A stretch of DNA of 64,000 nucleotides from Actinomadura rayongensis (GTDB lineage: Bacteria; Actinomycetota; Actinomycetes; Streptosporangiales; Streptosporangiaceae): contig NZ_WUTW01000005.1 of NCBI RefSeq assembly GCF_009831215.1, positions 186,001 to 250,000 of the forward strand. The letters are read 5' to 3'. The first letter of the stretch is position 1. Each line of letters opens with the position of its first letter. The notes under the pieces were generated by a model. That model worked only from the letters and a program-made list of their open reading frames with translations, had not been told where the DNA came from and made no database searches. Made by a program: the position numbers and the translations under genes. Shown here piece after piece: positions 27,455-48,830 of this stretch.

Positions 27455-28684
27455 TCACCCCACGCGCTGCACGTACGTCGGCGTGGGATGGTCGACCGTG
27501 TCCCCAGTGCCGAGTTCGCCGGAGGAGTTATTGCCCCATGCGCGCGGCACCGCGCCGGACTGCACGCTCAGCGCGTGGAACTTCCCCGCAGCGATGACCG
27601 TGTTGCTGAAGTTCTCGCCGGCGAGCGGCGTGGGGCTCAGCGCGTAGGAAGTAGTGCCGGTCCCGAGTTGGCCGTACGAGTTGGCTCCCCATGCGAAGCG
27701 GTTGTTAGCGGGCGCGGCTGCACTGGTGACCGCTGTGCTGTACCGGTATACGGCGGAGATCCCGACGACGTTCGCCAGGCCGGGGACCGTGACCGGCGAC
27801 AGGCGATTGGTGGTCGTCCCGTCACCGATTTGGCCGGAGCCGTTCCAGCCCCACGCCTTGACGGTCCCATCGGAGGTCAACGCCACGGAGTGGTAGTCCC
27901 CCGCCGCGACCTGCGTGACGCCGGACAGGCCCGGCACCGTGTGCGGGGAGCATGAAGCGGTGGTGTCGCCGGTGCCGAGCTGCCCGTAATTGTTGCTGCT
28001 TCCCCATGCTTGGACGGTGCCGTCGGCCTTGAGCGCCAGATAGTGGCTGTAACCGAGGGCGACCGCGCGTGGAGTGGTCGCCAGGCCGGTCACTCCCGCC
28101 ACCGTGACCGGCGTGCTGCTGTTCGAGCAGTTCGCGTTTTTGGCGCCCCAGGTTTTGGCGGTGCCGTCCGCCAGGACCACCACGACCGCGCCGAGGTTGG
28201 CAACGCTGACGGACACGGCATTGGTGATGCCGGGAACCTGTGTCGGAACGTGGAGCTCGGTTTCGGGGTCGAGACCGAGACCGAGCTCACCATTCAGGTT
28301 GGAGCCCCACGTCCACACCGTGCCGTCCTGCTTGACGGCCACAGCGGTCGTCGTACCGGCAGCCACCGCCTTGACCCGCGTTAAGCCCTTCACCTTGACG
28401 AACACGTTCGAGCCGAAGCTCGTGCTGCCGATTCCCAGCTCACCCCAGAGGTTGTCTCCCGCCGCGTAGACCTCGTTGAATCCAGTGGCGTCCGGAGCGG
28501 TTGCCATCAGGCTGAAGTAGGTGCCCATCGCAGCGGCACCCGGCACCGGATTGCCCCATGGGGTCGGTGTCAGGGCGGACGCGGAGGCGGCGATTCCGCT
28601 GACCGTCGCCGCCGTCGCGACGATCCCGGCCAGGCCCGCGCGCAACACCGTCCTGCGCTTGCCCTTCACGACTTGTTCCACCAT
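27455..28684 (-). CDS. exported RCC1 repeat protein, one complete seven-bladed propeller
   Basis: 409 residues from ATG at 28684 behind GGAAGGAAG. The N-terminus (KGKRRTVLRAG, then a hydrophobic stretch ending ASASA) is a signal peptide with twin-arginine character (KRRTVLRA), though the motif is imperfect. Seven RCC1 repeats follow, each with a W-G-x-N-x-x-G-x-L-G-x-G core (for example WGSNLNGELGLG, WGANSYGQLGTG), enough for one closed propeller and nothing else. RCC1 propellers are protein- or ligand-binding scaffolds. It is related to the propellers fused to the subtilases at 37358 and 45084. Repeat 3 has lost the GQLG core (KNANCSNSS). Function unknown. Confidence 0.8.
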   Translation of the reverse strand: MVEQVVKGKRRTVLRAGLAGIVATAATVSGIAASASALTPTPWGNPVPGAAAMGTYFSLMATAPDATGFNEVYAAGDNLWGELGIGSTSFGSNVFVKVKGLTRVKAVAAGTTTAVAVKQDGTVWTWGSNLNGELGLGLDPETELHVPTQVPGITNAVSVSVANLGAVVVVLADGTAKTWGAKNANCSNSSTPVTVAGVTGLATTPRAVALGYSHYLALKADGTVQAWGSSNNYGQLGTGDTTASCSPHTVPGLSGVTQVAAGDYHSVALTSDGTVKAWGWNGSGQIGDGTTTNRLSPVTVPGLANVVGISAVYRYSTAVTSAAAPANNRFAWGANSYGQLGTGTTSYALSPTPLAGENFSNTVIAAGKFHALSVQSGAVPRAWGNNSSGELGTGDTVDHPTPTYVQRVG

Positions 28685-29142
28685 GTCGAGGCTTCCTTCC
28701 GAGAGAACGGGAGAGTCGTTCCGACTCGCGTCCGCACTTACGGTAAAGCCCTCTGACAACCTTGTGGGCGGCCCGTTTCGGCCAGATCATCTTTCGCGCG
28801 ACCGTTGAGCAGTACGCTGAGCCCGACGGCTTCTGGAGGCCTCTCCGAAACGGCGTTTGCTCACTTGGTGACAACTATCGCTCGGCCGCAGTTGGCCGGG
28901 CGAGCAATGTGCCGCTGTTTGTGTTATCGGATGACAAGCTCCTGTAGGCGGGTACTCGCCCGTTGTTAGAATAGGCCGGATCTCGACCCCTCCACTTTCG
29001 TGAGGCTCAGGTCACTCCCTACGCTCGGCAACATCCGGTTTCCCGTGCCCGTCGTCGAGCGACCGGAGGTCGGGACGCGCCCATGGCGCTCGATGCCCAT
29101 GGAGGCCGCACCCAGCCTCGGCGGAACTAGGAGAGGCAGCAC
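28685..29142. other. 458-base divergent intergenic region
   Basis: Between the RCC1 gene and a DUF6801-FN3 gene. It contains TGACAAC (28754-28760), GTGACAACT (28868-28876) and an extended -10-like TAGAAT at 28967-28972, about 170 bases upstream of the TTG start at 29143. No gene is supported. Confidence 0.4.
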
Positions 29143-31053
29143 TTGGACGCCAAGATCACTTTCAAGCGGCTGAAGCCCGCCTGGGCCCTGGCCACTACCG
29201 CGGTGCTGGCGGGCGCTCTCTCCACTGCCGTCAGCCTCGGCGGATCACCGGCCGCGCAGGCCGCTCCGGACGCGGTGACGCTGCCGTTCAAGTGCACGTT
29301 CCCGTACATCGGCGAGCAAGAGCTGAGCATGAACATCAAGCTGCCCGACCTCTACTCGCAGATCGTGCCGGATCACAACGAATCACCGGATTACGTGCAC
29401 ATCGACGCGGTGGCGACGATCAACGCGAAGACCACCCAGGGACTTCGCCTGCTCGACGCGGCTTCCCTGGAGGGCGCCGCCAACGCCAAGGCGGGCGTGT
29501 TGGTGCCCGGTAGAGACAAGCCCATCACGGCGAACGCACATCCGGCCATCGCAAAGACCCCGGTCCCGCCATCCGGGTCGTTCAAGGTCCATGCAACGGG
29601 CCAGATCACGGCTCCGTTCGCATCTGAAGCCGGCAAGGGCAAGATCACGCTCGACTCGCTGTCGTTGACGGTCAAGCTCCGGAAGGCGGATGGCGGCCTG
29701 ACCGACCTCGGCGACACGTTCGACACGCAGTGCACGCAGAGCAGTGGAAGCAACGTCCTGGCCGAGTTCGACGTCATCGAGTCCGACAAGCAGCCCCCGA
29801 CGAAGCCCGGCAAGCCGACTGTCGTCCAGTCCGGTAAGACCGCCTACCTGTCGTGGAGCAAGTCGACCGACGACCACGGCATCGTCGCCTACAGGATCCT
29901 GAACGACGGCAAGGAGATCGACAACCCCGACGACCCGTTGGGGGGGAAGGTCGGCTCATTCGGCGACGTCGCCACGACGACCATGCCGGTGGAGCCGGGC
30001 AAGAGCTACAACCTGAGCGTGAAGGCCTTCGACGCCGGAGACAACTCCTCCGAGTCCGAGCCGGTCGCGTTCAAGGCCGGGCCGGACGCGCCGGAGAAGT
30101 CGCCGCCGAGCACGCCGGGCAAGCCGAAGGTGACGGCGGTCGGCGGGACGTGGGCGCGGCTCGAATGGGGGGCGTCGGAGGACAACATCGGCGTCGCCGC
30201 CTACGAGGTGTACGCCAAGGAGGGCAACGGCCAGCCGAAGCTCTCCGGCACGTTCCCCGGCACGGACCCGTACGGCTGGGCCGACGGGCTGAAGGCGCAG
30301 CACGACTACACGCTGTACGTCCGCGCGAAGGACGAGGCCGGCAACGCCTCTCCGTTCAGCGCGCCCGTCACCGTCCACACCACGGACGGCCCGCCGGACG
30401 GCTGCGGCAAGTTCGACGACGCCCCGGCGTCGCAGAAAAGCCGCGGCTGCGTCTACATGTCCGGGTACAACAACCTGAACAAGCTCGACAGCGCGGTGAT
30501 CGTCAACGACCCGAAGACCGCCACGCACACGAACATCGCCTACCAGGCGACGGCCGACGGCAAGAACATCCACGCGAGCTTCAAGTTCGCCTCGCCGCTG
30601 CGCTCGCCGACGACCGTCCTGACGTTCGGCCTCATGCCGACGACGGCGATGATGGAGCTGAAGCAGGTCGGCATCGGGACGCTCGAGGGGATATACCACC
30701 CCGAGAACGGCGGCGGCTACGACATGACGGCGAAGGCCAAGGTCATCGCGCGGATCTACGACGCGAAGGCCAACGGCGGGGCGCTCAACGTCGGGCCGTC
30801 CTGCCAGAGCAGCAAGCCGATCGACCTGACGCTGACCGCCAAGCCGACCGAGTACCGCGACATCCTGGTCGGCGGGATCCTGTCGGGGAAGATCGACCTG
30901 CCGAGCTTCAGCGGGTGCGGCGGCAAGCGGGAGAACATGAACCGCATCTTCAACGCCGCGATCTCCGGCAAGGGCAACTACGTGAAGATCGTCCAGGGCC
31001 CGATCTGCAAGCCCGAGACGACGAACTGCCGCCCGGTCCAGCCGGTGCGCTGA
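29143..31053 (+). CDS. secreted DUF6801 - 2x fibronectin III protein (636 aa)
   Basis: Starts at TTG 29143, with GGAGAGG about 7 bases upstream; no ATG or GTG upstream is compatible with the signal peptide. Signal peptide residues 1-41 (AQAA). N-module about 43-212 (LPFKCTFPYIG, LEGAANAKAGV). Two FN3 repeats about 218-312 and 323-413. The C-terminal module (about 420-636) is longer than in the relatives and holds eight or so Cys (GCGKF, RGCVYM, GPSCQSS, SGCGG, PICKPETTNC), suggesting extra disulfides. No wall-anchor motif. Same unknown function as the family. Confidence 0.8.
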   Translation: MDAKITFKRLKPAWALATTAVLAGALSTAVSLGGSPAAQAAPDAVTLPFKCTFPYIGEQELSMNIKLPDLYSQIVPDHNESPDYVHIDAVATINAKTTQGLRLLDAASLEGAANAKAGVLVPGRDKPITANAHPAIAKTPVPPSGSFKVHATGQITAPFASEAGKGKITLDSLSLTVKLRKADGGLTDLGDTFDTQCTQSSGSNVLAEFDVIESDKQPPTKPGKPTVVQSGKTAYLSWSKSTDDHGIVAYRILNDGKEIDNPDDPLGGKVGSFGDVATTTMPVEPGKSYNLSVKAFDAGDNSSESEPVAFKAGPDAPEKSPPSTPGKPKVTAVGGTWARLEWGASEDNIGVAAYEVYAKEGNGQPKLSGTFPGTDPYGWADGLKAQHDYTLYVRAKDEAGNASPFSAPVTVHTTDGPPDGCGKFDDAPASQKSRGCVYMSGYNNLNKLDSAVIVNDPKTATHTNIAYQATADGKNIHASFKFASPLRSPTTVLTFGLMPTTAMMELKQVGIGTLEGIYHPENGGGYDMTAKAKVIARIYDAKANGGALNVGPSCQSSKPIDLTLTAKPTEYRDILVGGILSGKIDLPSFSGCGGKRENMNRIFNAAISGKGNYVKIVQGPICKPETTNCRPVQPVR

Positions 31054-33473: not shown

Positions 33474-36356
33474 GTGAGACGAAGGACCCGAGCACGTAAG
33501 GCCAGAGCCCTCGCGCTCTTGGCCGCGGGCTCCACTGCCCTCACGGGGGTCGTGGGCCTGACGTTCGCGCAGAGCGCGGTGGCGGCGGTGCCGCACGGCG
33601 AGCTGACGCTGAACTACCGTTGTGTCTACCCGATGATCGGTGCCCAGGACCTCAAGGTCAACGTCAAGGTCGACGGCATCCCGGACACGGTCAAGACCAA
33701 CACGACGGTCGCGCCGCTATCGGTGAAGACCACCGACATCGTGAGCGGCGACACGACCACCGGCCTGTTCGCGATGGACGCCAAGTCCCTCGAAGGCTCG
33801 GCGGTCGCGGAAGTCAACGGCGTGTTCCCGGACGGGCACACCGAGGACATGCCGACCAACGTCACCATCCCCAAGGTGACGGTGCCGGACACGGGCGACT
33901 TCCCGCTGACGGCGGACGGCACCACCCCGCGCGCGATCAACTCGGGCACGGCGAAGGGCTGGGGCCGGGTCAACGTCGGCAACCTGAAGCTGCACGTGGC
34001 GCCGAAGAACGCCGCGGGCGAGCTGACGGCGCTGGGCGAGTTCGACGTCCAGTGCTACCAGAAGCCGGGCCAGGACAACCAGATCGCCGCGGTTTACGTC
34101 CAGGAGGGTTCCGAGACGGGCGGCGACGCGCCGAACGTCAAGTGGGACCGTCCGACGGCTCCGGAGCCGAAGGCCGACGACCACACGCCGGTCGACGGCA
34201 AGCTGAGCGGCCTCACGTTCTCCTGCAAGTTCCCGATCATCAAGCCGCAGGGCCTGAAGGTCGACGCGAGCCTGCCGTACCCGGAGGACATCCACGCGAA
34301 CACGCTGACCCCGCAGATGAAGGTCAGCTCGGACGCGGAGGTCAACGCCTACACGGTCAACGCGATGCAGACGGTCATCGACCCGCCTGCCGCGTCCCTT
34401 GAGGGCTACGCGATCGCGACGGCCAACCTGTGGGCGCCGGAGATCCAGAACGGCCAGACCCCGCTGGCGGCCAAGCTGAAGCTGCCGATCGCCAAGCTGC
34501 CGGTCCCCGAGTCGGGCACGCTGCCGATCAAGGGCCTGCTGGGCACCGCCCCGCCGCTGGTCTTCTCCAAGGCCGGCGAGGGCAAGATGGGCGTGCAGCG
34601 CCTGGACCTGTACATCGTCCTGCGCGACGCGAACGGGGATCCGCACCCCGACCTGAACCCGGGCGGCAAGCCGTTCCAGGTTCCCTGCACCCTGGACGGG
34701 CCGGCGGCGCCTCCCGGCCAGAACAACATCATCCACACCTTCAAGATCACTGACGTGACGTCGCCGGCGGAGGACAAGACGCCGCCGACCGTTCCCGGCA
34801 CGCCGACCGTGGCCGACATCACCGGCACCACGGCGAACGCGACCTGGGGCGCTTCGAAGGACGAGGACGGCGGCTCGGGCCTCAAGGGCTACAACGTCTT
34901 CCTCAACGGCACCAAGTTCGGTGACACCGTCACCGACCCGAAGGTGGCGCTGACCGGGCTGGAAGCGGGCAAGCACTACAAGCTCGAAGTCAGCGCGATC
35001 GACAACAAGGGCAACGAGTCCGCGAAGAGCGCGGTCGAGTTCGACACCCCCGCGCCGCCCCAGAAGCCGGGCGCGGTCACGGGTCTCGAAGTGACCAGCA
35101 CGACCTTCGACTCGGTCTCGCTGAAGTGGAACGCCGCCACGAACGCCGACAAGTACGTCGTGAAGTACGGCGACAAGACGGTGGAAGTCCCGAGCGGCAC
35201 CACCACGACGATCACGGGTCTCTCCCCGGAGACCAAGTACACCTTCGCGGTGAACGGTGTGAACGCGCAGGGTTCCGGTGACGCGGCCACGGTCGACGCC
35301 ACCACCCCGGCGAAGCCGATCGACAAGCCGGGCGAGCTCAAGGGCCTGACGGTCGTGGGCACGACCTTCGACTCGGTCACGGTCAAGTGGGACCAGACCG
35401 CGGGCGCCGCCAAGTACAAGATCGCGTGGGACGGCGGCTCCGCGGAGACCGCCGACACCACCTACACGATCAAGGGCCTGAACGCGAACACCGCGTACAA
35501 GGTCACGGTCACGCCGAACAACACCGCGGGTGACGGCACGGCGGCCTCCGTCGACGCCAAGACCCAGGCCAAGCCCGACACCACGAAGCCCTCGGTTCCG
35601 GGTGACGTCAAGGGCACGGCGACCGGCGACAGCGTCGCGCTGACCTGGTCGGCGTCCAAGGACGAGGACGGCGGCTCCGGCCTGGCCGGCTACTACGTCT
35701 ACCAGAACGGGACCAAGCTTCCCGGCCTGGTGACGGGCACCAGCAAGACCATCAGCGGCCTCGCCGCCGGCAAGTACACGTTCACGGTCTCGGCCGCGGA
35801 CAAGGCCGGCAACGAGTCCGACCAGAGCGCGGGCACCGACGTCACGGTCGAGACGCCGCCGGCCGGCGGCAGCACGACCTACGCCCTCACCGGCACGTCG
35901 GCGATCAAGAGCATCAACGGGACCATCCCGCTGACGGGCTCCGTCACCTCGACCGTCACCGACGGCAAGGTGAGCGCCGACCTGACGCTCGGCGGCAGCG
36001 CCGGCAAGTTCTCGCTGTTCGGCTTCCTGCCGGGCACGGTGGACGTCGCCTACGTTCCGCAGGGCAAGACCACGGGCACCCTGGCCGGGACCGCGCTGAG
36101 CACGGAGACCAAGACGGTCGTCAAGCTCTCGTCGATCAAGATCTTCGGCCTGGAGATCGCCGGCGGCACGACCTGCCAGACCGCGACGCCCGCCACCGTT
36201 CCGCTGAAGTCGTCCAACTTCGGCCCGAACGGCGGCGACCTGAGCGGCACGTTCACCCTTCCGGCCCTCCAGGGCTGCGGTTTCCTGAACCCGCTCGTCA
36301 GCGCTCTCGCTGCCGGCCCGGGCAACACGGTCACCCTGAAGGCCGTCAAGAAGTGA
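33474..36356 (+). CDS. secreted double-DUF6801 - 4x fibronectin III protein (960 aa)
   Basis: GTG start at 33474, AGGAGAG upstream. Signal peptide about 1-37. Two N-modules in tandem: residues 42-215 (LNYRCVYPMIG) and 243-430 (LTFSCKFPIIK), each with its own closing Cys region. Four FN3 repeats cover about 437-795; repeats 1 and 4 share KDEDGGSGL, and 2 and 3 share TTFDSV, indicating internal duplication in pairs. The C-module ends the protein (about 800-960; FSLFGFLPG, IFGLEIAGGTTC, GNTVTL). It is the only member with a duplicated N-module. No membrane anchor. Its terminator precedes a lipoprotein gene. Confidence 0.8.
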   Translation: MRRRTRARKARALALLAAGSTALTGVVGLTFAQSAVAAVPHGELTLNYRCVYPMIGAQDLKVNVKVDGIPDTVKTNTTVAPLSVKTTDIVSGDTTTGLFAMDAKSLEGSAVAEVNGVFPDGHTEDMPTNVTIPKVTVPDTGDFPLTADGTTPRAINSGTAKGWGRVNVGNLKLHVAPKNAAGELTALGEFDVQCYQKPGQDNQIAAVYVQEGSETGGDAPNVKWDRPTAPEPKADDHTPVDGKLSGLTFSCKFPIIKPQGLKVDASLPYPEDIHANTLTPQMKVSSDAEVNAYTVNAMQTVIDPPAASLEGYAIATANLWAPEIQNGQTPLAAKLKLPIAKLPVPESGTLPIKGLLGTAPPLVFSKAGEGKMGVQRLDLYIVLRDANGDPHPDLNPGGKPFQVPCTLDGPAAPPGQNNIIHTFKITDVTSPAEDKTPPTVPGTPTVADITGTTANATWGASKDEDGGSGLKGYNVFLNGTKFGDTVTDPKVALTGLEAGKHYKLEVSAIDNKGNESAKSAVEFDTPAPPQKPGAVTGLEVTSTTFDSVSLKWNAATNADKYVVKYGDKTVEVPSGTTTTITGLSPETKYTFAVNGVNAQGSGDAATVDATTPAKPIDKPGELKGLTVVGTTFDSVTVKWDQTAGAAKYKIAWDGGSAETADTTYTIKGLNANTAYKVTVTPNNTAGDGTAASVDAKTQAKPDTTKPSVPGDVKGTATGDSVALTWSASKDEDGGSGLAGYYVYQNGTKLPGLVTGTSKTISGLAAGKYTFTVSAADKAGNESDQSAGTDVTVETPPAGGSTTYALTGTSAIKSINGTIPLTGSVTSTVTDGKVSADLTLGGSAGKFSLFGFLPGTVDVAYVPQGKTTGTLAGTALSTETKTVVKLSSIKIFGLEIAGGTTCQTATPATVPLKSSNFGPNGGDLSGTFTLPALQGCGFLNPLVSALAAGPGNTVTLKAVKK

Positions 36357-37315: not shown

Positions 37316-37357
37316 AATGGCGCTTCCCCCAAAAGATGCCACTACAGGAGGCCGAGT

Positions 37358-40300
37358 TTGTCCTCTCCCCCCGTCATCGAACCATCACGGAAAAGTAGGC
37401 GCGGGCCGCTTGCCGTGCTCGCCGCGCTGGCCCTCGTCGCGTCCGGCCTCGCGGCCCCCGGCGCCGCCGCCGATCCACAGCCGAGACTGAAGCCGCTCTA
37501 CGACCTTTCCCGGGAGAAGGGCAGGCCGGGCACCAAGGGCCCGCTGCCCAAGGGCTTCTCCCAGACGAGCCTGAACGTCAAGTTCCGCACGGACCGGACC
37601 GTGCGCCTGCGCGACGGGAAACTCGTCGCCGCGAACCAGGACGACACCCGGCAGATCCAGCGCGTCCTCGCCGACTTCCCGGGAGCGACGATCCGTCGGC
37701 TGGCGATCGGGTCGGAGCAGAAGGTCGCGGACCAGCGAGCCAAGGTGGAGAAGCGCACCGGCCAGGAGAGCCCGGATTTCAACTCCTGGTACTCCGTCCT
37801 CGCGCCCGCCGGAATCGAGAAGCTTCTCGGCCGCCTGAACGCCCTGCCCTCCGTCGAGATCGCCGAGGCCGCGCCGAAGGCCAAGGCCGTATCCGAACCG
37901 CTCCGTCCGTTCCAGCGTTACCGAAATGCGGTCGGCGCCGCCGGGGGCACCGGCATCGAGGCGGACGCGATCAACGGTGTTCCCGGTGGCAAGGGCGACG
38001 GCATCACCGTGGGCGACAGCGGTCCCGGCGCAGACGCCGTCCTGACGGCCACACTCGGTCCCGGGCACCTCACGGTGGGCACCAGGCACACCGCGATCGT
38101 GGCGCCCGAGTTCGACGGCGATCTGGTCTGGACGTGGGGCGACAACACTCACGGCCAGCTCGGCACCGGCACCACGACCAACAGCGCCTATCCCGTCCGC
38201 GTTCCCGGCCTGGTCAACGTGGTCGCCGTCGCGGCGGGCGGCGACTACACGCTCGCGTTGAAGGACGACGGCACGGTGTGGGCCTGGGGCGACAACGCCC
38301 ACGGCCAGCTCGGCGACGGCACCACGACCGAGCGGCACACACCCGTCCAGGTCAGCGGCATCACCACCGCGAAGGCCATCGCCGCCGGGCCCGGCGGCCA
38401 CGCCCTCGCCGTCCTGGCCGACGGCACCGTCCGGGCGTGGGGCGCCAACGGCTCCGGGCAGCTCGGCAACGGAACCACGACCGAAAGCCATATCCCGGTC
38501 ACGGTCAGCGGCCTGTCCGGTGTCGCGACCACCGCCGGGGCGATCAGCGCGGGCACCGTCCACTCCCTGGCGGTCAAGACCAACGGCACCGTGGTCGCCT
38601 GGGGCGGGAACGGCTTCGGGCAGCTCGGCAACGGAACCACCACCGGCAGCACCACGCCGGTCACCGTCTCGGGGTTGAGCACGGCCACCCAGGTCAGCGC
38701 CGGCACCGGGCACAGCATCACCCGGCTCGCGGACGGGACGGTCCGCACCTGGGGCCTCAACGGTTCCGGCCAGCTCGGCAACGGATCCACCACCAGCAGC
38801 TCGACGCCCGTCGCCGTCGCCGGGCTGAGCGGGATCGCCTCGGTCGCAGGAGGCGGCAACACCAGCGCCGCTGATGGGGCCTCGTCCTACATGTGGGGCG
38901 CGAACAGCGCCGGGCAGTACGCGGACGGCACCACCACCGGCCAGAACACACCGGCGCTTCTCTCCGGGCGCTGGGACGCGACCGCCGTCGGCACCTGGCA
39001 CGCCGTGCACACCAGGTCGGCGAGCGTTTACGCCTCGGGATCGAATACGGCCGGGCAACTCGGTACCGGAAACACGAACAACTCCACCTTCATCGTCGGC
39101 ATCTACGACAGGAAGAACATCTGGAACCTGTGTCACGAGGAGTTCACCGGACGCCCGGGCGGCGCTCCGGTCAACGTCCTTCCTCTCGTCGGGCCCGCGT
39201 GCAACAGCAGGTACGACGCCATGCACGGCACGAGCACGCTGGGCATCATCGCGGCCGACGACGGCAACGGAAAGGGCATCTCAGGGCTTGTGCCGAACGC
39301 TGGAATCCAGCTCTCGACATCGAACGACCTCGCCGCCGCGGCGGCGGCGCTCAATGCCGGCGACGTCCTGGACCTCGAATGGGGCATCTACAACTCCGCC
39401 GGGGACGGACTCGATCCGGCGGAGGCGAGCACCTACTACTACCAGGTGATCCTCGGCGCGGTGCAGCGCGGCGTGAGCGTCATCGAACCGGCCACCAACG
39501 AGGGCATCGACCTCGACGATCCGAGCGATCCGGGCGGTGCCGCCGTCATGGCACGCCCCGACTCGGGCGCGATCATGGTCGGTGCGGGGGCTCCGCCCCG
39601 TCCGTCCGGCGCCGACTGCCCCGGTCCCTCCGCGCCTGCCGAACGGTCGAAGCTCGATTTCTCGGACTACGGTTCGCGGGTCAACGTGCAGGCCTACGGC
39701 GAGTGCGCCGCGACCACGGGCGTGGATGCGGCGAATGACCTGACGCCGACCGAGACGGACCCGAACAGGCAGTACTGGTACTTCAGCGGCACGTCCAGCG
39801 CCACCCCGATCGTCGCGGGAGCCGTCGCCGCGCTCCAGGGCATCGCGAAGAAGTACGGCACGCCGCTCGAACCCCGGCAGCTACGGCAGTTGCTCGTTCA
39901 GACCGGAACGCCGCAGACCGGTGACACGAGCAAGCACATCGGGCCACAGCCGAATCTGCGGGCGGCTGTGAGTTATCTGCGGGGTGGGCTTGCTGTGGGG
40001 AACAGTCATGGGGTCTCGGTGCGGAATGACGGGAGCGTGTGGGCCTGGGGGCTCAACTCCAGTGGGCAGCTCGGGAACGGGACCACCGTCAACAGCACCT
40101 CGGGGGTGCAGGTCTCCGGGTTGAGCGGGGTCGTGCGGGCGCCCGGGGCTGTTGCGGCCGGGCAGAACCACTCGCTGGCCGTTCGGGGCGATGGGACTGT
40201 CTGGGCTTGGGGGGCCAACGGGTCTGGGCAGCTCGGGAACGGGACCACCGCCAATAGTTCTGTGCCTGTTCAAGTGAGCGGGTTGAGCGGGGTCAAGGCG

Positions 40301-41053
40301 GTTGCGGCGGGGCTCAGTTTCTCGCTCGCGCTCAAGAGTGATGGGACCGTTTGGGCTTGGGGGGCTAATGCCTCTGGGCAGCTTGGGAACGGGACCACTA
40401 CCGGGAGTTCTACGCCGGTTCAGGTCAGTGGGATCAGTGATGCCGCCGTCATCGGGGCGGGGTCCTCGCATGGGCTCGCGGTTCGGGCGGACGGGACCGT
40501 CAAGGCCTGGGGTGCCAACTCCAACGGGCAGCTCGGGAACGGGGCCAACACCAACAGCAGTGCGCCTGTCACGGTGTCCGGGTTGAGCGGGGTTTCCACG
40601 TGGGCCGGGGCGCTTGCGGGTGGGTTCGCTCATTCCGTCGCGCTGCTCGCGGACGGGACCGTCCGGGCCTGGGGGCTCAACAATTATGGGCAGCTCGGGA
40701 ACGGGTCCACTGCGTCCAGCAATATTCCGGTCGCCGTCAGCGGGCTCAGCGGTGTCGCGACGGTTGGGGCCGGTGGTTGGCACAGTGTCGCTTCCGGTAC
40801 GTCCGGGGTTTCCACGGCTTGGGGGATGAACACCAGCGGGCAGCTCGGGGACGGGTCCACCACGAGCAGTTCCACGCCCGTCGTCGTCAGCGACTGGGGG
40901 CCGCTCGCGGGTGTCGCGGCCGGCGGGAGTTCCACGACCGGGACCACCCCGGCCGGGATCGTGTTCGCCTGGGGGCTCAACTCCTCCGGGCAGCTCGGGG
41001 ACGGGACGACCACCAATCGCAGTACACCCGTCTTCGTCAACGATCTTCCGTGA
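37358..41053 (+). CDS. exported subtilase split by an RCC1 propeller, with a second C-terminal propeller (1231 aa)
   Basis: TTG start at 37358, AGGAGG 6 bases upstream. Signal peptide about 1-38, then a propeptide-like region (45-170, ending in a NALPSVEIAE strand). The S8 Asp segment is GDGITVGDSG (Asp220). Seven RCC1 repeats (about 257-590) follow, interrupting the catalytic domain. It resumes with the His motif AMHGTST (His623), the oxyanion Asn in ATNEG (Asn714) and the Ser motif GTSSATP (Ser813). Seven more RCC1 repeats (about 894-1231) end the protein. All catalytic residues seem present, so it may be an active secreted protease whose propellers bind substrate or partners. From about 39960 the codon use shifts to more T and G. 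Confidence 0.8.
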   Translation: MSSPPVIEPSRKSRRGPLAVLAALALVASGLAAPGAAADPQPRLKPLYDLSREKGRPGTKGPLPKGFSQTSLNVKFRTDRTVRLRDGKLVAANQDDTRQIQRVLADFPGATIRRLAIGSEQKVADQRAKVEKRTGQESPDFNSWYSVLAPAGIEKLLGRLNALPSVEIAEAAPKAKAVSEPLRPFQRYRNAVGAAGGTGIEADAINGVPGGKGDGITVGDSGPGADAVLTATLGPGHLTVGTRHTAIVAPEFDGDLVWTWGDNTHGQLGTGTTTNSAYPVRVPGLVNVVAVAAGGDYTLALKDDGTVWAWGDNAHGQLGDGTTTERHTPVQVSGITTAKAIAAGPGGHALAVLADGTVRAWGANGSGQLGNGTTTESHIPVTVSGLSGVATTAGAISAGTVHSLAVKTNGTVVAWGGNGFGQLGNGTTTGSTTPVTVSGLSTATQVSAGTGHSITRLADGTVRTWGLNGSGQLGNGSTTSSSTPVAVAGLSGIASVAGGGNTSAADGASSYMWGANSAGQYADGTTTGQNTPALLSGRWDATAVGTWHAVHTRSASVYASGSNTAGQLGTGNTNNSTFIVGIYDRKNIWNLCHEEFTGRPGGAPVNVLPLVGPACNSRYDAMHGTSTLGIIAADDGNGKGISGLVPNAGIQLSTSNDLAAAAAALNAGDVLDLEWGIYNSAGDGLDPAEASTYYYQVILGAVQRGVSVIEPATNEGIDLDDPSDPGGAAVMARPDSGAIMVGAGAPPRPSGADCPGPSAPAERSKLDFSDYGSRVNVQAYGECAATTGVDAANDLTPTETDPNRQYWYFSGTSSATPIVAGAVAALQGIAKKYGTPLEPRQLRQLLVQTGTPQTGDTSKHIGPQPNLRAAVSYLRGGLAVGNSHGVSVRNDGSVWAWGLNSSGQLGNGTTVNSTSGVQVSGLSGVVRAPGAVAAGQNHSLAVRGDGTVWAWGANGSGQLGNGTTANSSVPVQVSGLSGVKAVAAGLSFSLALKSDGTVWAWGANASGQLGNGTTTGSSTPVQVSGISDAAVIGAGSSHGLAVRADGTVKAWGANSNGQLGNGANTNSSAPVTVSGLSGVSTWAGALAGGFAHSVALLADGTVRAWGLNNYGQLGNGSTASSNIPVAVSGLSGVATVGAGGWHSVASGTSGVSTAWGMNTSGQLGDGSTTSSSTPVVVSDWGPLAGVAAGGSSTTGTTPAGIVFAWGLNSSGQLGDGTTTNRSTPVFVNDLP
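38126..41050 (+). repeat. two blocks of seven RCC1 repeats
   Basis: DNA repeats of about 150-165 bases encoding W-G-x-N-x-x-G-Q-L-G-[ND]-G units: block one 38126-39128, block two 40037-41050. Each block has seven units, the number that closes one RCC1 propeller. Confidence 0.75.
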
Positions 41054-41124: not shown

Positions 41125-41247
41125 TCGTCGTCGTGGTCGGAGATGGCTGGTGGAACGGCTTATGGTCACTCACCAGAATCCCGGTTTCGGACGACCCCAA
41201 CGAGACATTGGAAAGAATCACTAAGATCGAATTCGATCCTTGGTAAG

Positions 41248-42297
41248 ATGCGGCAAAGAAATTCCGAGACCTCGGGTGTCGCCTTGTCTCAGGGAAAAGA
41301 TGTCCTGGCCGTACTGAACGAACGCCGCGATTCGGGCAGTAAGCCCGGCATGCGGTCCGATAAGTACCGTATCGCCTTGGCTGTCGAGGGCGGCGGCATG
41401 CGCGGGCTGATCTCCGGTGCCATGCTCACGGCGGTTCGGGAGCTCGGTTACGGCGATTGTTTCGACGCCGTGTACGCGTCGTCCGCCGGAGCGATCAACA
41501 GCGCCTACTTCGTCGCGGGAGACGACTGGCCCGCGCTCGTCGTCTACTATGACGAGCTGGTCGGGAAAGAGTTCTACGACCGTCGCCGTGTCCTGCGCGG
41601 GCAGTCGGCGCTCTCGCTCGACTTCGTCCTGGACGAGGTGATGGAACACCGCCATCCCCTCGACTACCGAAAAGTCATCGACTCTCCCGTGCAACTCTGC
41701 GTCCTCGTGACGTCCATCCATTCTCTGACGCCCATGGCGATGCGCGGGTTCAGCGGCAAGGGGGCGCTGAAAAGCGCGCTGCGCGCCAGTGCCTGCATTC
41801 CGCTGCTCGCGGGTCCGGGCGTCTCGATCGGGGACGACATGATGATGGACGGCTCGCTCGTCCTCGCCCACCCAGTGCTCGCCGCGGAAAAGGACGGCTT
41901 CACCCACGCGCTGGTCATCAGGACCCGGATGAGAGAAAAAGCGACCCGGCCCGGCGCCGGCGTCAAACTCACCGCGCTCGCGCTCAACCGGGTCGCGGCC
42001 GGACTGGGAACGGCCTACGCGTCCGCCCTGGCGGATTATGACGACCTGCGGCTCCGTCTCGCCCGCGACGACGCCACCGGGGATCCTCCGTTCCCCATGA
42101 TGGAGATCGCCTGCCACACGGGCAGCCACGCCGTGTCGAGGCTCACGCGCGACCGCGGAGTTCTGTTCGCGGGAATGCGAGCCGGATACGACGCCGCCTA
42201 CACCGCGCTCACGGGAACCGCCGCGCCCAAGATCTACCTTCGTCCGGCGGTGGATCCCGCGCTTCTCGCCGCGAAAACCGAGACTTTACCCGGCTAG
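41248..42297 (+). CDS. patatin-like phospholipase
   Basis: 349 residues if started at ATG 41248; ATG 41350 is possible, and no start has a good ribosome-binding site. The patatin signatures are present: oxyanion loop VEGGGMRG (about 47-53), nucleophile elbow YASSAGA (Ser about 79, with Ala in place of the first Gly) and the dyad Asp in MMMDGSL (about 201). No signal peptide, so it is cytoplasmic and probably acts on the inner leaflet or acyl esters. Closest in layout to bacterial YjjU-type patatins. Translationally close to the kinase gene 11 bases downstream. Confidence 0.85.
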   Translation: MRQRNSETSGVALSQGKDVLAVLNERRDSGSKPGMRSDKYRIALAVEGGGMRGLISGAMLTAVRELGYGDCFDAVYASSAGAINSAYFVAGDDWPALVVYYDELVGKEFYDRRRVLRGQSALSLDFVLDEVMEHRHPLDYRKVIDSPVQLCVLVTSIHSLTPMAMRGFSGKGALKSALRASACIPLLAGPGVSIGDDMMMDGSLVLAHPVLAAEKDGFTHALVIRTRMREKATRPGAGVKLTALALNRVAAGLGTAYASALADYDDLRLRLARDDATGDPPFPMMEIACHTGSHAVSRLTRDRGVLFAGMRAGYDAAYTALTGTAAPKIYLRPAVDPALLAAKTETLPG

Positions 42298-42308
42298 GGG
42301 TGGTCGGC

Positions 42309-44516
42309 GTGGGAGACAGCGTTCCCACTCTCATCGGACGGCTCAACGGATCGGCCTCCGACAACGCCACGCTCGTGCAGCTCGGCGCGCGCACCCATCT
42401 GTTCGCCCAGCTCGAACGAGCGTTGCGCCAAACGGCCCTCGATCCCGCGTCCTTTCACTCGCTGTTCGGGATCTCCCGGCCGGCTCTGCTCGCCGGACTC
42501 ACCAGCGCGTACGCGGAAGTCGGCGAGGTCGTTCCGACGTGGCGGCAGAGCGGCCTGTTACGCGGATTCATCGGCCTCTTTGCGTTGACGCTCGGCCTCT
42601 TGGAGGAGATCGACAAGGTCAACTCCCTGACCTCGAGCGACTCCGACCATATCGACCGGCAGGTCACGCGCGATGTGCGCGTTCTGCGCGGGACCCTGTT
42701 CCAGGACGAGGCCGTCCGCACGGTCTTCGAGCGGCTTTACCGGTGGAGTTCCCCGGGCGGCTCGGCCCGGCGCGACCTGGCCGAGTCCCAGTGGAACGAC
42801 CTCGATCTGGAGTCCCTGACGTTCTACCGGAGAGGAACCACGTCGTTCCTGCTCCGGGGGCGGACGAGGCTTCTCAACGACAGCGTCGTCGTCAAGTGCC
42901 TCATCTACCCCTACACGGCCATCGCGCCGGTCAGCGAGGAGTGCGAGAACTACCAGGCGAAATACCATTTCGACCAGGCGCGGTTCGTGCCCCGGCTGCG
43001 CGCGTCCTCGCCGAAATGGGTCATCATGGACTTCGTCCCGGGGCCGACGTTACGCGAGTACGTGACGGAGCACAGACCCCAGAACCCCGAGTCCGTCACC
43101 GTCGATCTCCAGCTGGTCCGCGAAGTCTCGGTGGCGATCCTCACCGCCCTGGACGAACTCGATCGCAACGGCCTGCAGCATCTCGACCTCACCCCTTCCA
43201 ACATCATCCTCGGCCTCGAGGGTGACCACGTCGATCAGGTGACTCTGATCGACATGGGGAAGAACCATCTCTACAGCCGTTCCGTCGGGCTCCTTGAAGG
43301 ACCCGAGTCGATCTTCGTCGCGCCGGAGATCAAGCGGGACGGCGCGGGGAACTTCCTGGCCGACATCTATTCACTCGGCCTGGTCGTCTGCTGGCTGGCG
43401 GACCGGGCCGGCTTCTCCGGCCCGGTCGTGCCGGACGTGCTCTACCAGCAGTTGCCGCCGCTCGCCCGCTTCATCGACGACATGGTCGATCGCGATCCGC
43501 GCAAGCGTCTTCTGCTCGCCGACCAGGAGGAGATCGGGAGTTCCCGGTTCCGGTACATCAAGCAGGCGCTGATCGAGGAAATCGATATTCTGGAGAAGGC
43601 CGACCGGGTCAAACCGGCGGACGAGCGCTGGCTGCTCGCCATCGTTGATCTCTATCGTTCGCGCCAGCCCTTCCGGCAGTACCAGATCTGGCACGAGGAG
43701 AGGCGCAGGCCCAACCGGCACAGCAGGTACGCCGGATGGCTGCTGGCGTGGTCCGCCGTCTGCGCCGCGAACTGGTATCTGGTGACGGCGGTCGTGTTCA
43801 TCTGGACGCTGCGCTACTGGGGAGTGGACTCGCTGCCGCCCGCCGCGGACGTCGCCGGCCGCCTGACGGGAGACAAGGGCTTCCCGGTGGTCGACGGCCT
43901 TCGAGCCGCCGACTACCAGTTGGGATTCAGCTCCGAGAACGTCCAGACCCTCGTCCTCGCCCTGAGCTTCGGGCTGGTCGCGACCAAGTACTACCAGAGC
44001 ATCTACGCGAACCTCACGACGCGTTCCCTGCCCGGGATCAAAAGCGCCCTGTGCGAGTTCTTCATGCGCTTCAACTCATGCTGGGTCGGGGGTCCCATCC
44101 TCGTCGCCGTCCTGGTCAATCCCGCCTGGTGGCCCTGGTGCGCCGCCATCGGTTACTTCGGCGTGGCGCTCAACGACCTGTTCTCCCATCTGGTGGCCAC
44201 CGGCGCCATCCGCCGGGGGTCGTCGGAGTTCTCCTCGATTCCGGCGCACACGCGGCATATTCTGCGCAGCCACGGCGAGTGGTGGCGGACCATGACCATG
44301 TACTCGCTGCTGTTATTCCTGGTCGCCTACTGCCTGAGCAGGGGCATCATCGGCGACTGGTGGGTCTACGCCGCCGGGATCGCGCTGGTCAACGTCCTGA
44401 AGCTCTACATGAGCAACACGTGCCGTCTCGCCCCGCTCACCCGGGGCGCGCTCGCCCGGTCCTTCGCCGCAGGTGAACGCTTGGAGGCCCTGCACAGCAG
44501 AGATCGGCGGACATGA
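42309..44516 (+). CDS. protein kinase-like protein with multi-pass membrane C-terminus (735 aa)
   Basis: GTG at 42309 with AGGGGTGG 5-6 bases upstream is preferred over GTG at 42300. Residues 1-165 are helical and unfamiliar. A kinase-like domain follows (about 170-430): VVVKCL Lys (about 196), catalytic loop QHLDLTPSN (Asp about 293, Asn about 298), metal-binding IDMG in place of DFG (Asp about 315), VAPEI, and DIYSLGLVVCWL. The key catalytic residues are kept, so activity is plausible. From about residue 470 there are six or so hydrophobic helices (for example WLVTAVVF-type, GPILVAVLV, YSLLLFLVAY). A kinase with a polytopic C-terminus is unlike the usual single-pass actinobacterial Ser/Thr kinases. 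Confidence 0.75.
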   Translation: MGDSVPTLIGRLNGSASDNATLVQLGARTHLFAQLERALRQTALDPASFHSLFGISRPALLAGLTSAYAEVGEVVPTWRQSGLLRGFIGLFALTLGLLEEIDKVNSLTSSDSDHIDRQVTRDVRVLRGTLFQDEAVRTVFERLYRWSSPGGSARRDLAESQWNDLDLESLTFYRRGTTSFLLRGRTRLLNDSVVVKCLIYPYTAIAPVSEECENYQAKYHFDQARFVPRLRASSPKWVIMDFVPGPTLREYVTEHRPQNPESVTVDLQLVREVSVAILTALDELDRNGLQHLDLTPSNIILGLEGDHVDQVTLIDMGKNHLYSRSVGLLEGPESIFVAPEIKRDGAGNFLADIYSLGLVVCWLADRAGFSGPVVPDVLYQQLPPLARFIDDMVDRDPRKRLLLADQEEIGSSRFRYIKQALIEEIDILEKADRVKPADERWLLAIVDLYRSRQPFRQYQIWHEERRRPNRHSRYAGWLLAWSAVCAANWYLVTAVVFIWTLRYWGVDSLPPAADVAGRLTGDKGFPVVDGLRAADYQLGFSSENVQTLVLALSFGLVATKYYQSIYANLTTRSLPGIKSALCEFFMRFNSCWVGGPILVAVLVNPAWWPWCAAIGYFGVALNDLFSHLVATGAIRRGSSEFSSIPAHTRHILRSHGEWWRTMTMYSLLLFLVAYCLSRGIIGDWWVYAAGIALVNVLKLYMSNTCRLAPLTRGALARSFAAGERLEALHSRDRRT

Positions 44517-45083: not shown

Positions 45084-48000
45084 GTGTCCTCCCGTTCCGT
45101 ACGCGGGCGATCACCGGCCGCATGGCGAAGGCCGCTGGTCGCGCTCACCGCGCTGGCCCTCGGCGCGACCAGCCTCGGCATCACGGCGAGCCCGGCCGGC
45201 GCCCAGGCCAAGCCCCGCCTGAAACCCCTCTACGACCACTCCCGCGACAAGGGCAGGCCCGGCACGCGCGGCCCCCTGCCCAAGGGTTTCTCCGCGACGA
45301 CCCTCAAGGTGAAATTCCGGACCGAGGCGAAGGTCCGGCTGCGCGGCGGAAAACTCACCGCCGCCGACTCCGGCGCGACCGAGCAAATACAGAAAGTGCT
45401 CGCGAAGTATCCCGGCGCGACGGTCACGCGACTGTCCGTGCGCTCGGAGAAGAAGCTCGACGACGAACGCGCCGCCCTCCAGGAGAAGACGGGCCGGGAA
45501 ATGCCCGACTTCAACTCCTGGTACGTCGTCCGCGTCCCGGACCATCTCGCGAACCTCGTGACGGACCTGAACGCGCTGTCGTCCGTCGAGATCGCCCAGG
45601 CGCAGGCGCAACTCAAGAACATGTCCGAGCCGCTGCAGGGCCAGCAGCGCTACCGCAACCCGGTCGGCGACCCGGCCGGCACCGGCATGGACGTCGACGG
45701 CATCAACAGCGTGCCCGGCGGCAAGGGCGACAACATCACCGTCGCGGACGTGGACAGCGGCACCTCCCAGTCCGCCGCCTTCGGCCTCCAGTGGGGCCAC
45801 CTAGCGGCGGGCGGGGCGCACACGCTCGCCGTCGACCTCGGGCCGTCCGCGCCGACCGTGTGGGCCACCGGCTCCAACAACCACGGCCAGCTCGGCGACG
45901 GAACCACCACCAACCGGACGACGCCCACCGAGATCCCCGGCCTGTCCGGGGTGAAGGCCGTCGCTGCGGCGGGCGACTACTCGCTCGCGCTCAAGACCGA
46001 CGGCACCATCTGGGCCTGGGGCGCGAACGGCTCCGGGCAGCTCGGCGACGGGACCACGACCGAGCGACACACGCCCGTCCAGGTCAGCGGCATCACCACC
46101 GCCACCGCGATCTCGGCGGGGTCGGACGGGCACGCGCTCGCCGTCCTGTCCGACGGGACCGTCCGGGCGTGGGGCTACAACGGCGGCGGACAGCTCGGCG
46201 ACGGGACGACCACCAACCGCAGCACGCCCGTCACCGTCTCCGGCCTCACCGGGGTCAAGACGACGTGGGGCGCGGTCGGGGCGGGCGGCGGGCAGTCCCT
46301 GGCCGTCCTGACCAGCGGCACGGTCAAGGCGTGGGGGTCCAACGGCTCCGGCCAGCTCGGCGACGGGACCACCACCAACCGCACGACCCCGGTCAGCGTC
46401 TCCGGGATCACCACCGGCAAGCAGGTCGCGGCGGGCGGGCTCCACAGCCTCGCCGTCCTCACCGACGGCTCGCTGAAGGCCTGGGGGCTCAACTCGTCCG
46501 GGCAGCTCGGCGACGGGACGACCACGAACCGGACCTCGCCGGTGAGCGTCCCGCTGTCCGAACCGGTCGGCAGCGTCGTCGCGGGCGGCTTCCACACCGC
46601 CGCCCAGGCGTACGACCCGAGCAACGCCAGCTACTACTCGGCGTGGGCCTGGGGCTACAACGCCCACGGCCAGGTCGGCGACGGGACCACCACCAACCGG
46701 ACGAGCCCGACGGCGCTCAGCCGCACCGGGTTCGTCACCACGCTGGCGGCGGGCGCGCAGCACACCGTCTCGGGGTTCGCGATCGGGCACGCCGCGTGGG
46801 GCTTCAACTCCAGCGGCCAGCTCGGGCTCGGTGACACCGCCGATCGGACCCAGGAGACCATCTGGGACGTCCGGAACAACTACTGGAACACCTGCCACGA
46901 GGAGTTCACGGGACGTCCGAGCCCGGGGGGCGACCCCGTCCGGATCCACCCGACGTGGGGCTCGAACTGCATCTCCTCCACGCAGAGCGAGCACGGCACC
47001 GCGATCTCCGGGATCATCGGCGCCCGGGACGACAACAACGCGGGCGTCGCGGGCATCGCGCCGCACGCCAAGCTGCTGCTGTCCTCCCCCGGCGGCGACG
47101 TCCTCGACACGATCGACGCGCTCGGGCCGGGCGACGTCATCGCCGCGCCGGTCGCGTTCGGCTCCAACGGCAAGGACTACCCGTACGAGTGGGACGGGTC
47201 GGTCTACGACGCGATCGTCCAGGCGACCGCGCGCGGGATCACGTTCATCGAGGCGGCCGGGAACAGCGGCACCAACCTCGACGACCCGAGCGACGCCAAC
47301 GCGGCGCTGATCATGAGCCGTCCCGACTCGGGGGCGATCATGGCGGGCGCGGGCGCGCCGCCGAGCCCGGGCGGCTCCAACTGCCTCGGCTCCAGCCCGC
47401 CCGCCGAGCGCACCGCGATCAACCTCGCGGGGTGGTGGGCGTCCGGCTACGGGTCGCGCGTCGACCTCCAGGCGTACGGCTCGTGCGTCGCGACGCTCGG
47501 CGTCACCGGGTACCAGGACCTGACGCCGTCCGAGACGGACCCGAACAAGATGTACCGGGGGACGTTCAACGGCACGTCCAGCGCCACCGGCATCCTCGGC
47601 GGCGCGGTCGCGACGCTCCAGGGCGTGGCGAAGAAGTACGGGACGCCGCTGACGCCGCAGCAGGTCCGGCAGATCCTCAAGCAGACCGGCACGCCGCAGG
47701 CCGCGGGCGACACCCGGCACATCGGGCCCGAGCCGAACCTGCGCGCCGCCGTCGCCGCCCTGCGCGGCGGGGTGGCCGCCGGAGGGGGGCACACGCTGGA
47801 CGTCAAGAACGACGGCACGGTGTGGGCGTGGGGCGACAACACGTCCGGGCAGCTCGGCGACGGGACGACCACGAACCGGACGTCGCCCGTCCAGGTGTCC
47901 GGGCTGACGAACATTGCGCGGACGTTCGGTTCGATCGACGGCGGGGGCGACCACTCGCTCGCGGTCAAGAGCGACGGGACGGTCGTGGCGTGGGGGTCCA

Positions 48001-48830
48001 ACGCGTCGGGGCAGCTCGGCGACGGAACCACCACCAACCGCGCCACTCCGGTCGCGGTCAGCGGGCTCACCAACGTGCGCGCGGTGGCGGCGGGCGAGAC
48101 CTTCTCGCTGGCGCTGAAGAACGACGGGACCGTCTGGGCGTGGGGCAACAACGCCAACGGGCAGCTCGGCGACGGGACCACGACGAACCGGACGACGCCC
48201 GTCCAGGTGTCCGGGCTGACGTCCGTGGCGTCCATCGGCGCGGGTCAGTACCACGCGCTCGCGGTCCGCACGGACGGGACCGTCCGGGCGTGGGGTGACA
48301 ACGGGTACGGGCAGCTCGGCGACGGAACGACCACCGACCGACCGACTCCGGTCACTCCCACCGGGCTCAGCGGCGTCTCGACGTGGCCCGGCGCGGTGGC
48401 GGGCGGCCTCGGCCACTCGCTGGCGCTGCTGGCGAACGGCACGGTCAAGGCGTGGGGCCTCAACGCCAGCGGCGAGGTCGGCGACGGAACCACCACCAAC
48501 CGCACCACTCCGGTCGCCGTCAGCGGGCTCAGCGACATCACGAGCCTGAGCGCGGGCGCCTTCCACAGCGTCGCGGTGCGGGCGAGCGGCCTCGTCGTGG
48601 CGTGGGGGTCCAACCTCAACGGCTCGCTCGGGGACGGCACCACCACGACGCGGACGACGCCGGTCAGCGTCACGGGGCTCGGCGGCGTCTCGGGCGTCTC
48701 GGGCGGGAACCTGCACACGGTCGCGGTCCGTCCCGCCGGGGCGGTCTTCGGCTGGGGCGACAACAACACCGGTGAACTCGGCGATGGAACCACCACCGAT
48801 CGGTACACCGCGGTAGCGATCCTGCCGTGA
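45084..48830 (+). CDS. second exported subtilase split by an RCC1 propeller (1248 aa)
   Basis: GTG start at 45084, AAGGAG 6 bases upstream. Same layout as the protein at 37358: signal peptide (1-40), propeptide (about 45-172), Asp segment ITVADVDSG (Asp222, or Asp224), seven RCC1 repeats (about 258-595), His motif SEHGTAI (His637), AAGNSG (Asn727), FNGTSSATG (Ser832), then seven more RCC1 repeats (about 900-1248). The Pro that normally follows GTSxA is Gly here. The paralogues share the propeptide signature GRPGT.GPLPKGFS and DFNSWY. Codon use is uniform here, unlike the first copy. Likely a secreted protease; substrate unknown. Confidence 0.8.
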   Translation: MSSRSVRGRSPAAWRRPLVALTALALGATSLGITASPAGAQAKPRLKPLYDHSRDKGRPGTRGPLPKGFSATTLKVKFRTEAKVRLRGGKLTAADSGATEQIQKVLAKYPGATVTRLSVRSEKKLDDERAALQEKTGREMPDFNSWYVVRVPDHLANLVTDLNALSSVEIAQAQAQLKNMSEPLQGQQRYRNPVGDPAGTGMDVDGINSVPGGKGDNITVADVDSGTSQSAAFGLQWGHLAAGGAHTLAVDLGPSAPTVWATGSNNHGQLGDGTTTNRTTPTEIPGLSGVKAVAAAGDYSLALKTDGTIWAWGANGSGQLGDGTTTERHTPVQVSGITTATAISAGSDGHALAVLSDGTVRAWGYNGGGQLGDGTTTNRSTPVTVSGLTGVKTTWGAVGAGGGQSLAVLTSGTVKAWGSNGSGQLGDGTTTNRTTPVSVSGITTGKQVAAGGLHSLAVLTDGSLKAWGLNSSGQLGDGTTTNRTSPVSVPLSEPVGSVVAGGFHTAAQAYDPSNASYYSAWAWGYNAHGQVGDGTTTNRTSPTALSRTGFVTTLAAGAQHTVSGFAIGHAAWGFNSSGQLGLGDTADRTQETIWDVRNNYWNTCHEEFTGRPSPGGDPVRIHPTWGSNCISSTQSEHGTAISGIIGARDDNNAGVAGIAPHAKLLLSSPGGDVLDTIDALGPGDVIAAPVAFGSNGKDYPYEWDGSVYDAIVQATARGITFIEAAGNSGTNLDDPSDANAALIMSRPDSGAIMAGAGAPPSPGGSNCLGSSPPAERTAINLAGWWASGYGSRVDLQAYGSCVATLGVTGYQDLTPSETDPNKMYRGTFNGTSSATGILGGAVATLQGVAKKYGTPLTPQQVRQILKQTGTPQAAGDTRHIGPEPNLRAAVAALRGGVAAGGGHTLDVKNDGTVWAWGDNTSGQLGDGTTTNRTSPVQVSGLTNIARTFGSIDGGGDHSLAVKSDGTVVAWGSNASGQLGDGTTTNRATPVAVSGLTNVRAVAAGETFSLALKNDGTVWAWGNNANGQLGDGTTTNRTTPVQVSGLTSVASIGAGQYHALAVRTDGTVRAWGDNGYGQLGDGTTTDRPTPVTPTGLSGVSTWPGAVAGGLGHSLALLANGTVKAWGLNASGEVGDGTTTNRTTPVAVSGLSDITSLSAGAFHSVAVRASGLVVAWGSNLNGSLGDGTTTTRTTPVSVTGLGGVSGVSGGNLHTVAVRPAGAVFGWGDNNTGELGDGTTTDRYTAVAILP

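Follow-up and report, generated by a model that had tools for sequence, protein, structure and literature searches.

We analysed a stretch of 64,000 nucleotides of the Actinomadura rayongensis genome (contig NZ_WUTW01000005.1; this whole stretch is called the window below). A gene at positions 37358..41053 of the forward strand, to which all coordinates of this gene refer, encodes a homologue of S8 subtilases with one inserted and one C-terminal RCC1 propeller. It is a single uninterrupted frame of 1231 amino acids. Reading-frame analysis of the window placed the start at a TTG codon at 37358, and a ribosome-binding site, AGGAGG (37346..37351), lies 6 bases 5′ of it. The database copy of the protein (P0001) starts 19 residues downstream of this codon. 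We favour the longer N-terminus because it agrees with that of the homologue P0002. Approximately residues 1-39 (37358..37474) look like a signal peptide, as judged by eye from the sequence. Residues 62-180 (37541..37897) have a fold like that of the subtilisin propeptide, as found by structural alignment to pro-subtilisin 3whi_B, which aligns to the predicted model starting at model residue 23 (protein residue 62). The gene product reads as a secreted protein of the subtilisin type, with secretion being read from the N-terminal sequence.

The S8 domain consists of two halves. The N-terminal half (residues 184-222; 37907..38023), recognised by profile and structure match, ends with the acid strand ITVGDSG, in which ITVGD begins at residue 216 and brings an Asp to position 220. 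In the alignment, residues 220-222 (38015..38023) are D-S-G in place of the family motif D-[IVL]-E, with Gly at 222, the probable equivalent of subtilisin Asp32. After this half come the inserted RCC1 propeller of seven blades, linkers included (residues 223-585; 38024..39112), and the C-terminal half (residues 588-874; 39119..39979), supported by Pfam, profile and structure match. This half carries Cys592 (39131..39133) directly after the propeller, Cys615 (39200..39202), located 8 residues before the catalytic His, His623 itself (39224..39226, the first residue of HGTS), the oxyanion Asn714 (39497..39499) and the nucleophile Ser813 (39794..39796) within GTSSATP, which begins at 811. A second seven-blade propeller, identified by blade motifs and structure match, forms the C-terminus (residues 880-1231; 39995..41050). 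The blade motif G.N..GQ[LY] occurs 14 times, seven times at residues 261-561 and seven times at 898-1206, in agreement with the original prediction of seven RCC1 repeats between the Asp and His segments and seven more at the end of the protein. Pfam found PF00082, the S8 family, at residues 613-853 only, with 68.2 bits (above the cut-off of 21.8), plus RCC1 families. Among the five Pfam matches (E up to 0.001), neither the PA domain nor the S9 family was present; the catalytic half matched PF00082 and subtilisins. NCBIfam gave only a sub-threshold match to PatA (28.4 bits; cut-off 421.05).

The split of the S8 domain was examined with relatives found by a search with residues 578-880. Among the best 120 of 146 proteins, 21 contained RCC1 repeats (P0001, which is the window protein, included) and 99 did not. 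An S8 profile built from 56 of the 99 uninserted relatives, picked by motif, gave two separate matching pieces in the window protein, in P0001 and in each of the remaining 20 RCC1 proteins; an extra third piece in P0009 is at chance level. The first piece ended at profile positions 49-58 in all of them except P0005 (131), and the second began at 43-76. In the window protein, the first piece comprises residues 170-220 and, with 12.3 bits, scores lowest among all first pieces; the second comprises residues 580-872 (227.3 bits). When the half preceding the propeller was used as a query (P0007, residues 10-195), 49 proteins were matched, and RCC1 was listed in all 49. Scoring of 237 sequences, a redundant set, with the profile gave 97 interrupted and 140 uninterrupted ones. 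For 19 interrupted sequences that are neither family members nor duplicates, the second piece started at 40-54 in every case and the first ended at 52-56 in 16; in the remaining 3 it ended at 109-124, running into the propeller as in P0005. No other type of domain was found at the insertion site among the interrupted rows of the 237 scored sequences, and relatives listed with Kelch, VCBS or other propellers were not among these rows.

Structure prediction pointed in the same direction. In the model, both halves together make up the subtilisin fold, and the seven inserted repeats, like the seven C-terminal ones, close into a propeller. The acid strand was modelled at residues 217-222 in the window protein and 185-190 in P0007, which is the same register in sequence. 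The best 50 of 1376 Foldseek matches were all RCC1-type or BLIP-II-like; subtilisins were among the matches in a further look. The proposal that the Asp segment packs with the His and Ser segments into one S8 domain withstood this check, and the profile split, the prediction and the conservation in the family bear out the claim that a whole folded domain has been inserted in a loop of the protease near the active site. The models thereby support a complete, closed seven-blade propeller within a single S8 domain, placed after its acid strand and before its His segment and conserved in the family. We also considered Asp584 (in GIYDRKNIW, five residues before Trp) as the true catalytic Asp, with the propeller lying upstream of the protease. 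This was rejected, as Asp is found there in 5 of 59 members and every family row could be aligned over the segment that surrounds Asp220.

Family comparisons were made on two sets. The first contained 40 distinct members, including the gene described above and a second window copy of the same architecture (45084..48830, +; 1248 amino acids); 14 duplicates were dropped and P0001 was omitted as the window protein itself. The full set, enlarged by the matches of the query with the half preceding the propeller, contained 59 members after removal of 10 duplicates and the short or truncated P0140, P0145 and P0152; it keeps the partial P0128 and two pairs that are more than 90% identical. The listings name the members automatically, for example "S8 family serine peptidase" or "RCC1 domain-containing protein". 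All 59 members have the His, Asn and Ser. Cys592 is present in 59, Cys615 in 58, Cys754 in 59 and Cys783 in 58, and Cys592 lies 369-389 residues beyond position 220. The Cys592/Cys615 pair marks the inserted clade, since none of the 91 parsed uninserted relatives has a Cys at the position of Cys592; 10 of them have a Cys between HED and HGT. A Cys592-Cys615 disulphide pinning the junction is likely from this pattern. The insertion, its single position, the seven blades, the common clade and the cysteine pair at the junction are established by sequence and prediction taken together.

The C-terminal ends differ among the 59 members: in 35 the protein stops after the protease, in 20 a second propeller follows, in 3 there is a longer tail and in one, P0150, a short remnant that resembles a blade. 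The longer tail is a ricin-B lectin by Pfam in the two proteins scanned (L092 and L079) and is listed likewise for P0144. In P0150 (929 amino acids), the short tail resembles a collapsed remnant of a second propeller. P0140 (633 amino acids) ends just past the His segment and P0152 (528 amino acids) within the propeller; both keep the propeptide and the propeller, and may be truncated or frameshifted genes. With an in-house blade profile, 7 or 8 blades were counted in every inserted and C-terminal propeller of the first set, the eighth presumably being a split blade. In the same 40 members, blades 1, 6 and 7, which flank the junction, are the most variable ones of the inserted propeller, and blades 2 and 3 the most conserved. 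Within the long S8 half, the stretch 640-700 is the most variable (entropy 1.91 vs 1.14-1.61), which fits changing substrates but is no proof of them.

In the tree of the S8 part following the insert, a single branch (support 100/100) separates the 40 inserted members from 36 uninserted rows, which include one locus fetched twice. On this tree, the insertion requires zero losses and the presence of the C-terminal propeller four changes. In the propeller tree, a 98/90 branch has on one side the 40 inserted propellers and the stand-alone P0121, and on the other 18 C-terminal propellers and a distant stand-alone one, L109; the C-terminal group has a support of only 74/83. The simplest reading of these trees would be one insertion and one origin of the C-terminal propeller, followed by losses or swaps. 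The L109 propeller, the longest branch of this tree, belongs to a further RCC1 gene of the window's own genome (1001-3613 of that locus; a stop-to-stop frame).

The family is thinly spread. In overlapping genome samples, strong matches (E of 8.6e-98 or better) were found at the family level in 8 of 298 genomes, the window's own included, with at least 26 copies, where up to eight candidates were scored per genome. All 26 copies are interrupted (L074, which is P0005, among them). At the order level, 10 of 345 genomes had matches at E < 1e-90, two of which (G328 and G340) were counted by the match alone, and at the class level 3 of 394, which added one locus, L114, that is also interrupted. Of 39 loci examined in named genomes, 31 have no interruption; the 8 that do come from Streptosporangium, Actinokineospora, Actinomadura and Kutzneria. 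Further named members come from Thermomonospora, Actinocorallia, Streptomyces and Actinophytocola, and all members carrying organism names are from actinomycetes. The window's own genome has four copies of the split architecture.

The identity of the catalytic acid was examined by comparison with subtilisin BPN′. A profile of 17 uninserted relatives aligned to BPN′ without gaps from GxG to HPDL. BPN′ Asp32 was placed opposite the E of the family motif D-x-E, not opposite its D, in the three chains shown, and again when another profile was aligned on a piece of BPN′. This Glu and the His of HED are 7 residues apart in 88 of the 91 uninserted relatives that could be parsed, as are Asp32 and His39 in BPN′; the parse covered 91 of the 99 proteins with a pattern that itself requires E or G at the acid place. 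Among the 59 inserted members, 56 have Glu at position 222, two have Asp (P0003 and the second window copy) and only the window protein has Gly; at position 220, 57 have Asp, one has Val and one has Glu. Since the selection pattern for the 56-sequence profile had demanded D-x-E/Q, the residues were counted anew in the full set of 99 uninserted proteins among the matches listed, which gave Glu in 98 and Gly in 1 at the acid position and Asp in 97 at the D position. Thus, the two positions are similarly conserved, conservation alone leaves the choice undecided, and the spacing decides for 222. Asp220 was dropped as the catalytic acid, because the ungapped BPN′ alignment and the spacing point to 222. 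The equivalent of Asp32 is therefore probably residue 222, which is Gly in the window protein, and Asp220 is probably a different conserved residue. Siezen et al. 2007 are said to have distinguished a Glu-His-Ser subset of subtilases, into which a D-x-E family with a Glu acid presumably fits.

The original prediction that all catalytic residues and the oxyanion Asn are kept therefore stands for His623, Asn714 and Ser813 and probably fails for the acid. Because of Gly222, we file the window protein as an S8 homologue and not as an active Asp-His-Ser subtilase. In addition, Thr713, adjoining the oxyanion Asn, takes the place of a Gly found in 54 of 59 members. An acid is retained at 222 in the three further copies of this genome: Asp in the second window copy, which also keeps His, Asn and Ser, and Glu in the remaining two. 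With Gly instead of Glu or Asp at this position, the window copy is probably impaired catalytically, in the sense that a much weakened enzyme or a non-cutting binder is more probable than a working protease. Departures from 74 near-invariant S8 columns were counted for each member by one leave-one-out rule. The idea that the window protein is the most degenerate member, suggested by columns picked without it, was rejected by this count.

Comparison with L081, an array of four copies (P0002, P0004, P0016 and P0003) from a genome of the same genus, revealed steps of similarity along the window. The upstream flank has 92-96% DNA identity to L081. Between about 37.5 and 39.9 kb, identity in the best matches is mostly 70-81%; these matches cover partial stretches and are alike for several copies. 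From 39.9 to 41.1 kb the identity to the P0004 gene is 89-93%, between 41400 and 44400 no match in L081 was found by DNA comparison, and from 44.6 to 49.8 kb the identity is about 89%. At fourfold sites, the difference between the window gene and P0004 is 0.36-0.54 for the front modules, compared with 0.20-0.22 for the C-terminal propeller. The latter equals the yardstick for orthologues, namely 0.12-0.26 between the second window copy and P0003, which are 89% identical in the protease part. Likewise, the difference between P0002 and P0003 is 0.22-0.23 for the inserted propeller (proteins 84-89% identical) and 0.33-0.46 elsewhere (53-71%). These silent sites and identity steps, rather than a conflict of trees, show that some paralogues have exchanged a C-terminal propeller and, in a separate event, an inserted one, or else had the remainder of the gene replaced, with borders near those of the domains. 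A proof of the hybrid gene from tree topology was not obtained, as the approximately unbiased test does not reject grouping with P0004 (p 0.31 for the protease half and p 0.131 for the inserted propeller). A spread of at least 0.20 between modules was seen in 7 of 780 pairs, so the exchange is local, not rampant.

Other genes lie around the two copies. A patatin-like phospholipase and a kinase-like protein are encoded between them (41143-44516, +), and two proteins with DUF6801 and fibronectin-III domains are encoded beside the array (29143-31053, + and 33474-36356, +). The gene at 27455-28759 (−) encodes a stand-alone RCC1 protein of 434 amino acids with an N-terminus that looks twin-arginine-like by eye. 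Its propeller groups with the inserted propellers in the tree (97/93, 95/87), with an unusual letter make-up and a long branch (0.9). Based on this placement, the protein may be an escaped inserted propeller.

Taken together, the explanation that we hold slightly more probable than all others combined is that these proteins are a family of secreted actinomycete subtilases in which the propeller is a lid or recruitment platform selecting the substrate, and that the window copy cuts weakly or not at all. Early in a subtilase family with a propeptide, a seven-blade RCC1 propeller would have entered the loop after the strand of the catalytic acid, a loop which we take to border the S2 subsite in furin-like enzymes. 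There it may sit at the edge of the cleft as a rigid lid or a platform for recruitment, choosing the protein to be cut. The Cys592-Cys615 disulphide would pin it in place. The C-terminal module may anchor the enzyme on the surface of its target; the anchor-like appearance of these modules comes from the ricin lectin that can occupy the same place. The position of the propeller relative to the cleft rests on the start of the insertion within a few residues of the acid, and the lid or platform is our best guess given this nearness, the conserved cysteine pair and the precedent of the S9 family. Several points weigh against this explanation. No activity or ligand was found reported for any family member in the literature looked at. 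The position of Asp220 is about as conserved as the acid position. The window protein departs from 6 of the 74 columns, compared with 7 in P0020 and 6 in P0013, and so is no outlier in overall decay; relaxed constraint is thus not shown besides position 222 and Thr713. Finally, variability of the C-terminal propeller likewise rises towards blades 6 and 7 in the 40 members, so the pattern in the inserted propeller is no proof of a selected face at the cleft.

We think it rather unlikely that the window copy is active because the change from D-I-E to D-S-G has recreated the standard subtilisin motif, with the strand slipped by two residues and Asp220 acting as the acid. D-S-G is the canonical motif of S8 enzymes and is visible in the BPN′ alignment; the long linker to the propeller would make such a slip cheap. 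His, Asn and Ser are kept in the protein, its departures from conserved columns are unexceptional, and one of the 99 uninserted relatives, P0030, has D-V-G. Nevertheless, the GxG-to-acid spacing and, in uninserted relatives, the acid-to-HED spacing set residue 222 opposite Asp32, the strand register is equal in the models of the window protein and P0007, and Thr713 stands beside the oxyanion Asn.

Two readings concern the propeller itself, and we regard each as unlikely. The propeller could be a regulator instead of a substrate selector, acting much as a BLIP-II on a tether would, as an inhibitor within the protein that keeps the cleft blocked as long as no partner is bound. Alternatively, it could be a mere accessory domain for surface binding in a tolerant loop, with no role in the choice of the cleavage site. 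The resemblance of the C-terminal modules of the family (ricin-B and propeller) to accessory binding domains and the scaffold-like conservation of blades 2 and 3 speak for the latter; the almost invariant cysteines that accompany the insertion suggest instead a rigidly held junction, and the tree can be explained without the insertion ever being lost. An assembly or gene-fusion artefact is so improbable as to be negligible. It is already refuted by independent genomes, with an identical junction in 59 distinct members of several genera and four copies in the window's own genome, and the window gene is one open frame. A bolder extension of the lid or platform explanation, which we put forward tentatively and hold to be less probable than not, is a subtilisin-fold counterpart of prolyl oligopeptidase, with its specificity residing in a swappable inserted propeller; small arrays in actinomycetes would recombine propellers and protease fronts, and some copies, the window protein among them, would be dead binders. 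If it is true, recombination among array copies would yield new recognition specificities.

The S8-RCC1 architecture is a real, conserved layout that is undescribed in the literature searched. The search on RCC1 with bacterial proteases and on propeller inserts in subtilases found no description of it in a body of literature that mostly excludes subscription journals. The claim that no protease with this layout had been described therefore holds for the literature searched, and related actinomycete proteins share the layout under automatic names. In the accessible part of one study, an RCC1 repeat protein and S8 peptidases are named as separate vesicle proteins (PMC4158809). A propeller inserted beside the active site of a serine peptidase is known from S9, and the same design now appears in the unrelated subtilisin fold. 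A single clade offers natural variants, namely relatives without the insert, C-terminal ends of three types and copies that either have or lack the catalytic acid, so it can be asked directly what the inserted propeller does to the protease. The exchange of propellers between paralogues allows asking whether specificity moves with the propeller. It is also a warning that the conserved D of "DxE" should not be read as a catalytic residue in this subfamily.

The proteins resemble other S8 subtilases in the fold with its propeptide and in the His, Asn and Ser, and the uninserted relatives align without gaps to BPN′ over the acid region. They differ in that the acid is Glu in nearly all members and Gly in the window protein, and in the 369-389 residues between position 220 and Cys592. 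Tripeptidyl peptidase II is an S8 enzyme that also has a long insert between the catalytic Asp and His, which is not known to be an RCC1 propeller. The PA inserts of other subtilases lie after the His. Such subtilases are the known S8 parallel for a folded domain inserted within the S8 domain, and the accessible text of PMC2605481 suggests that the insert covers the active site. The window protein, in contrast, has no PA match, and its insert is an RCC1 propeller before the His segment. BLIP-II, described in the accessible part of PMC9218822 as a beta-lactamase inhibitor secreted by soil bacteria, has the same RCC1-type seven-blade fold, a similarity seen by structure match; it is a stand-alone inhibitor, whereas the window propeller belongs to a protease homologue. 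The closest likeness in design is to prolyl oligopeptidase and oligopeptidase B of the S9 family, in which a seven-blade propeller is likewise inserted into the catalytic domain. In oligopeptidase B, the propeller (77-404) lies between two parts of the catalytic domain, and the propeller of this family restricts access to the active site, as given in the accessible part of PMC8533160. The S9 catalytic domain is an alpha/beta-hydrolase, whereas that of the window protein has the subtilisin fold; the two share a common design in catalytic domains that are not of shared descent.

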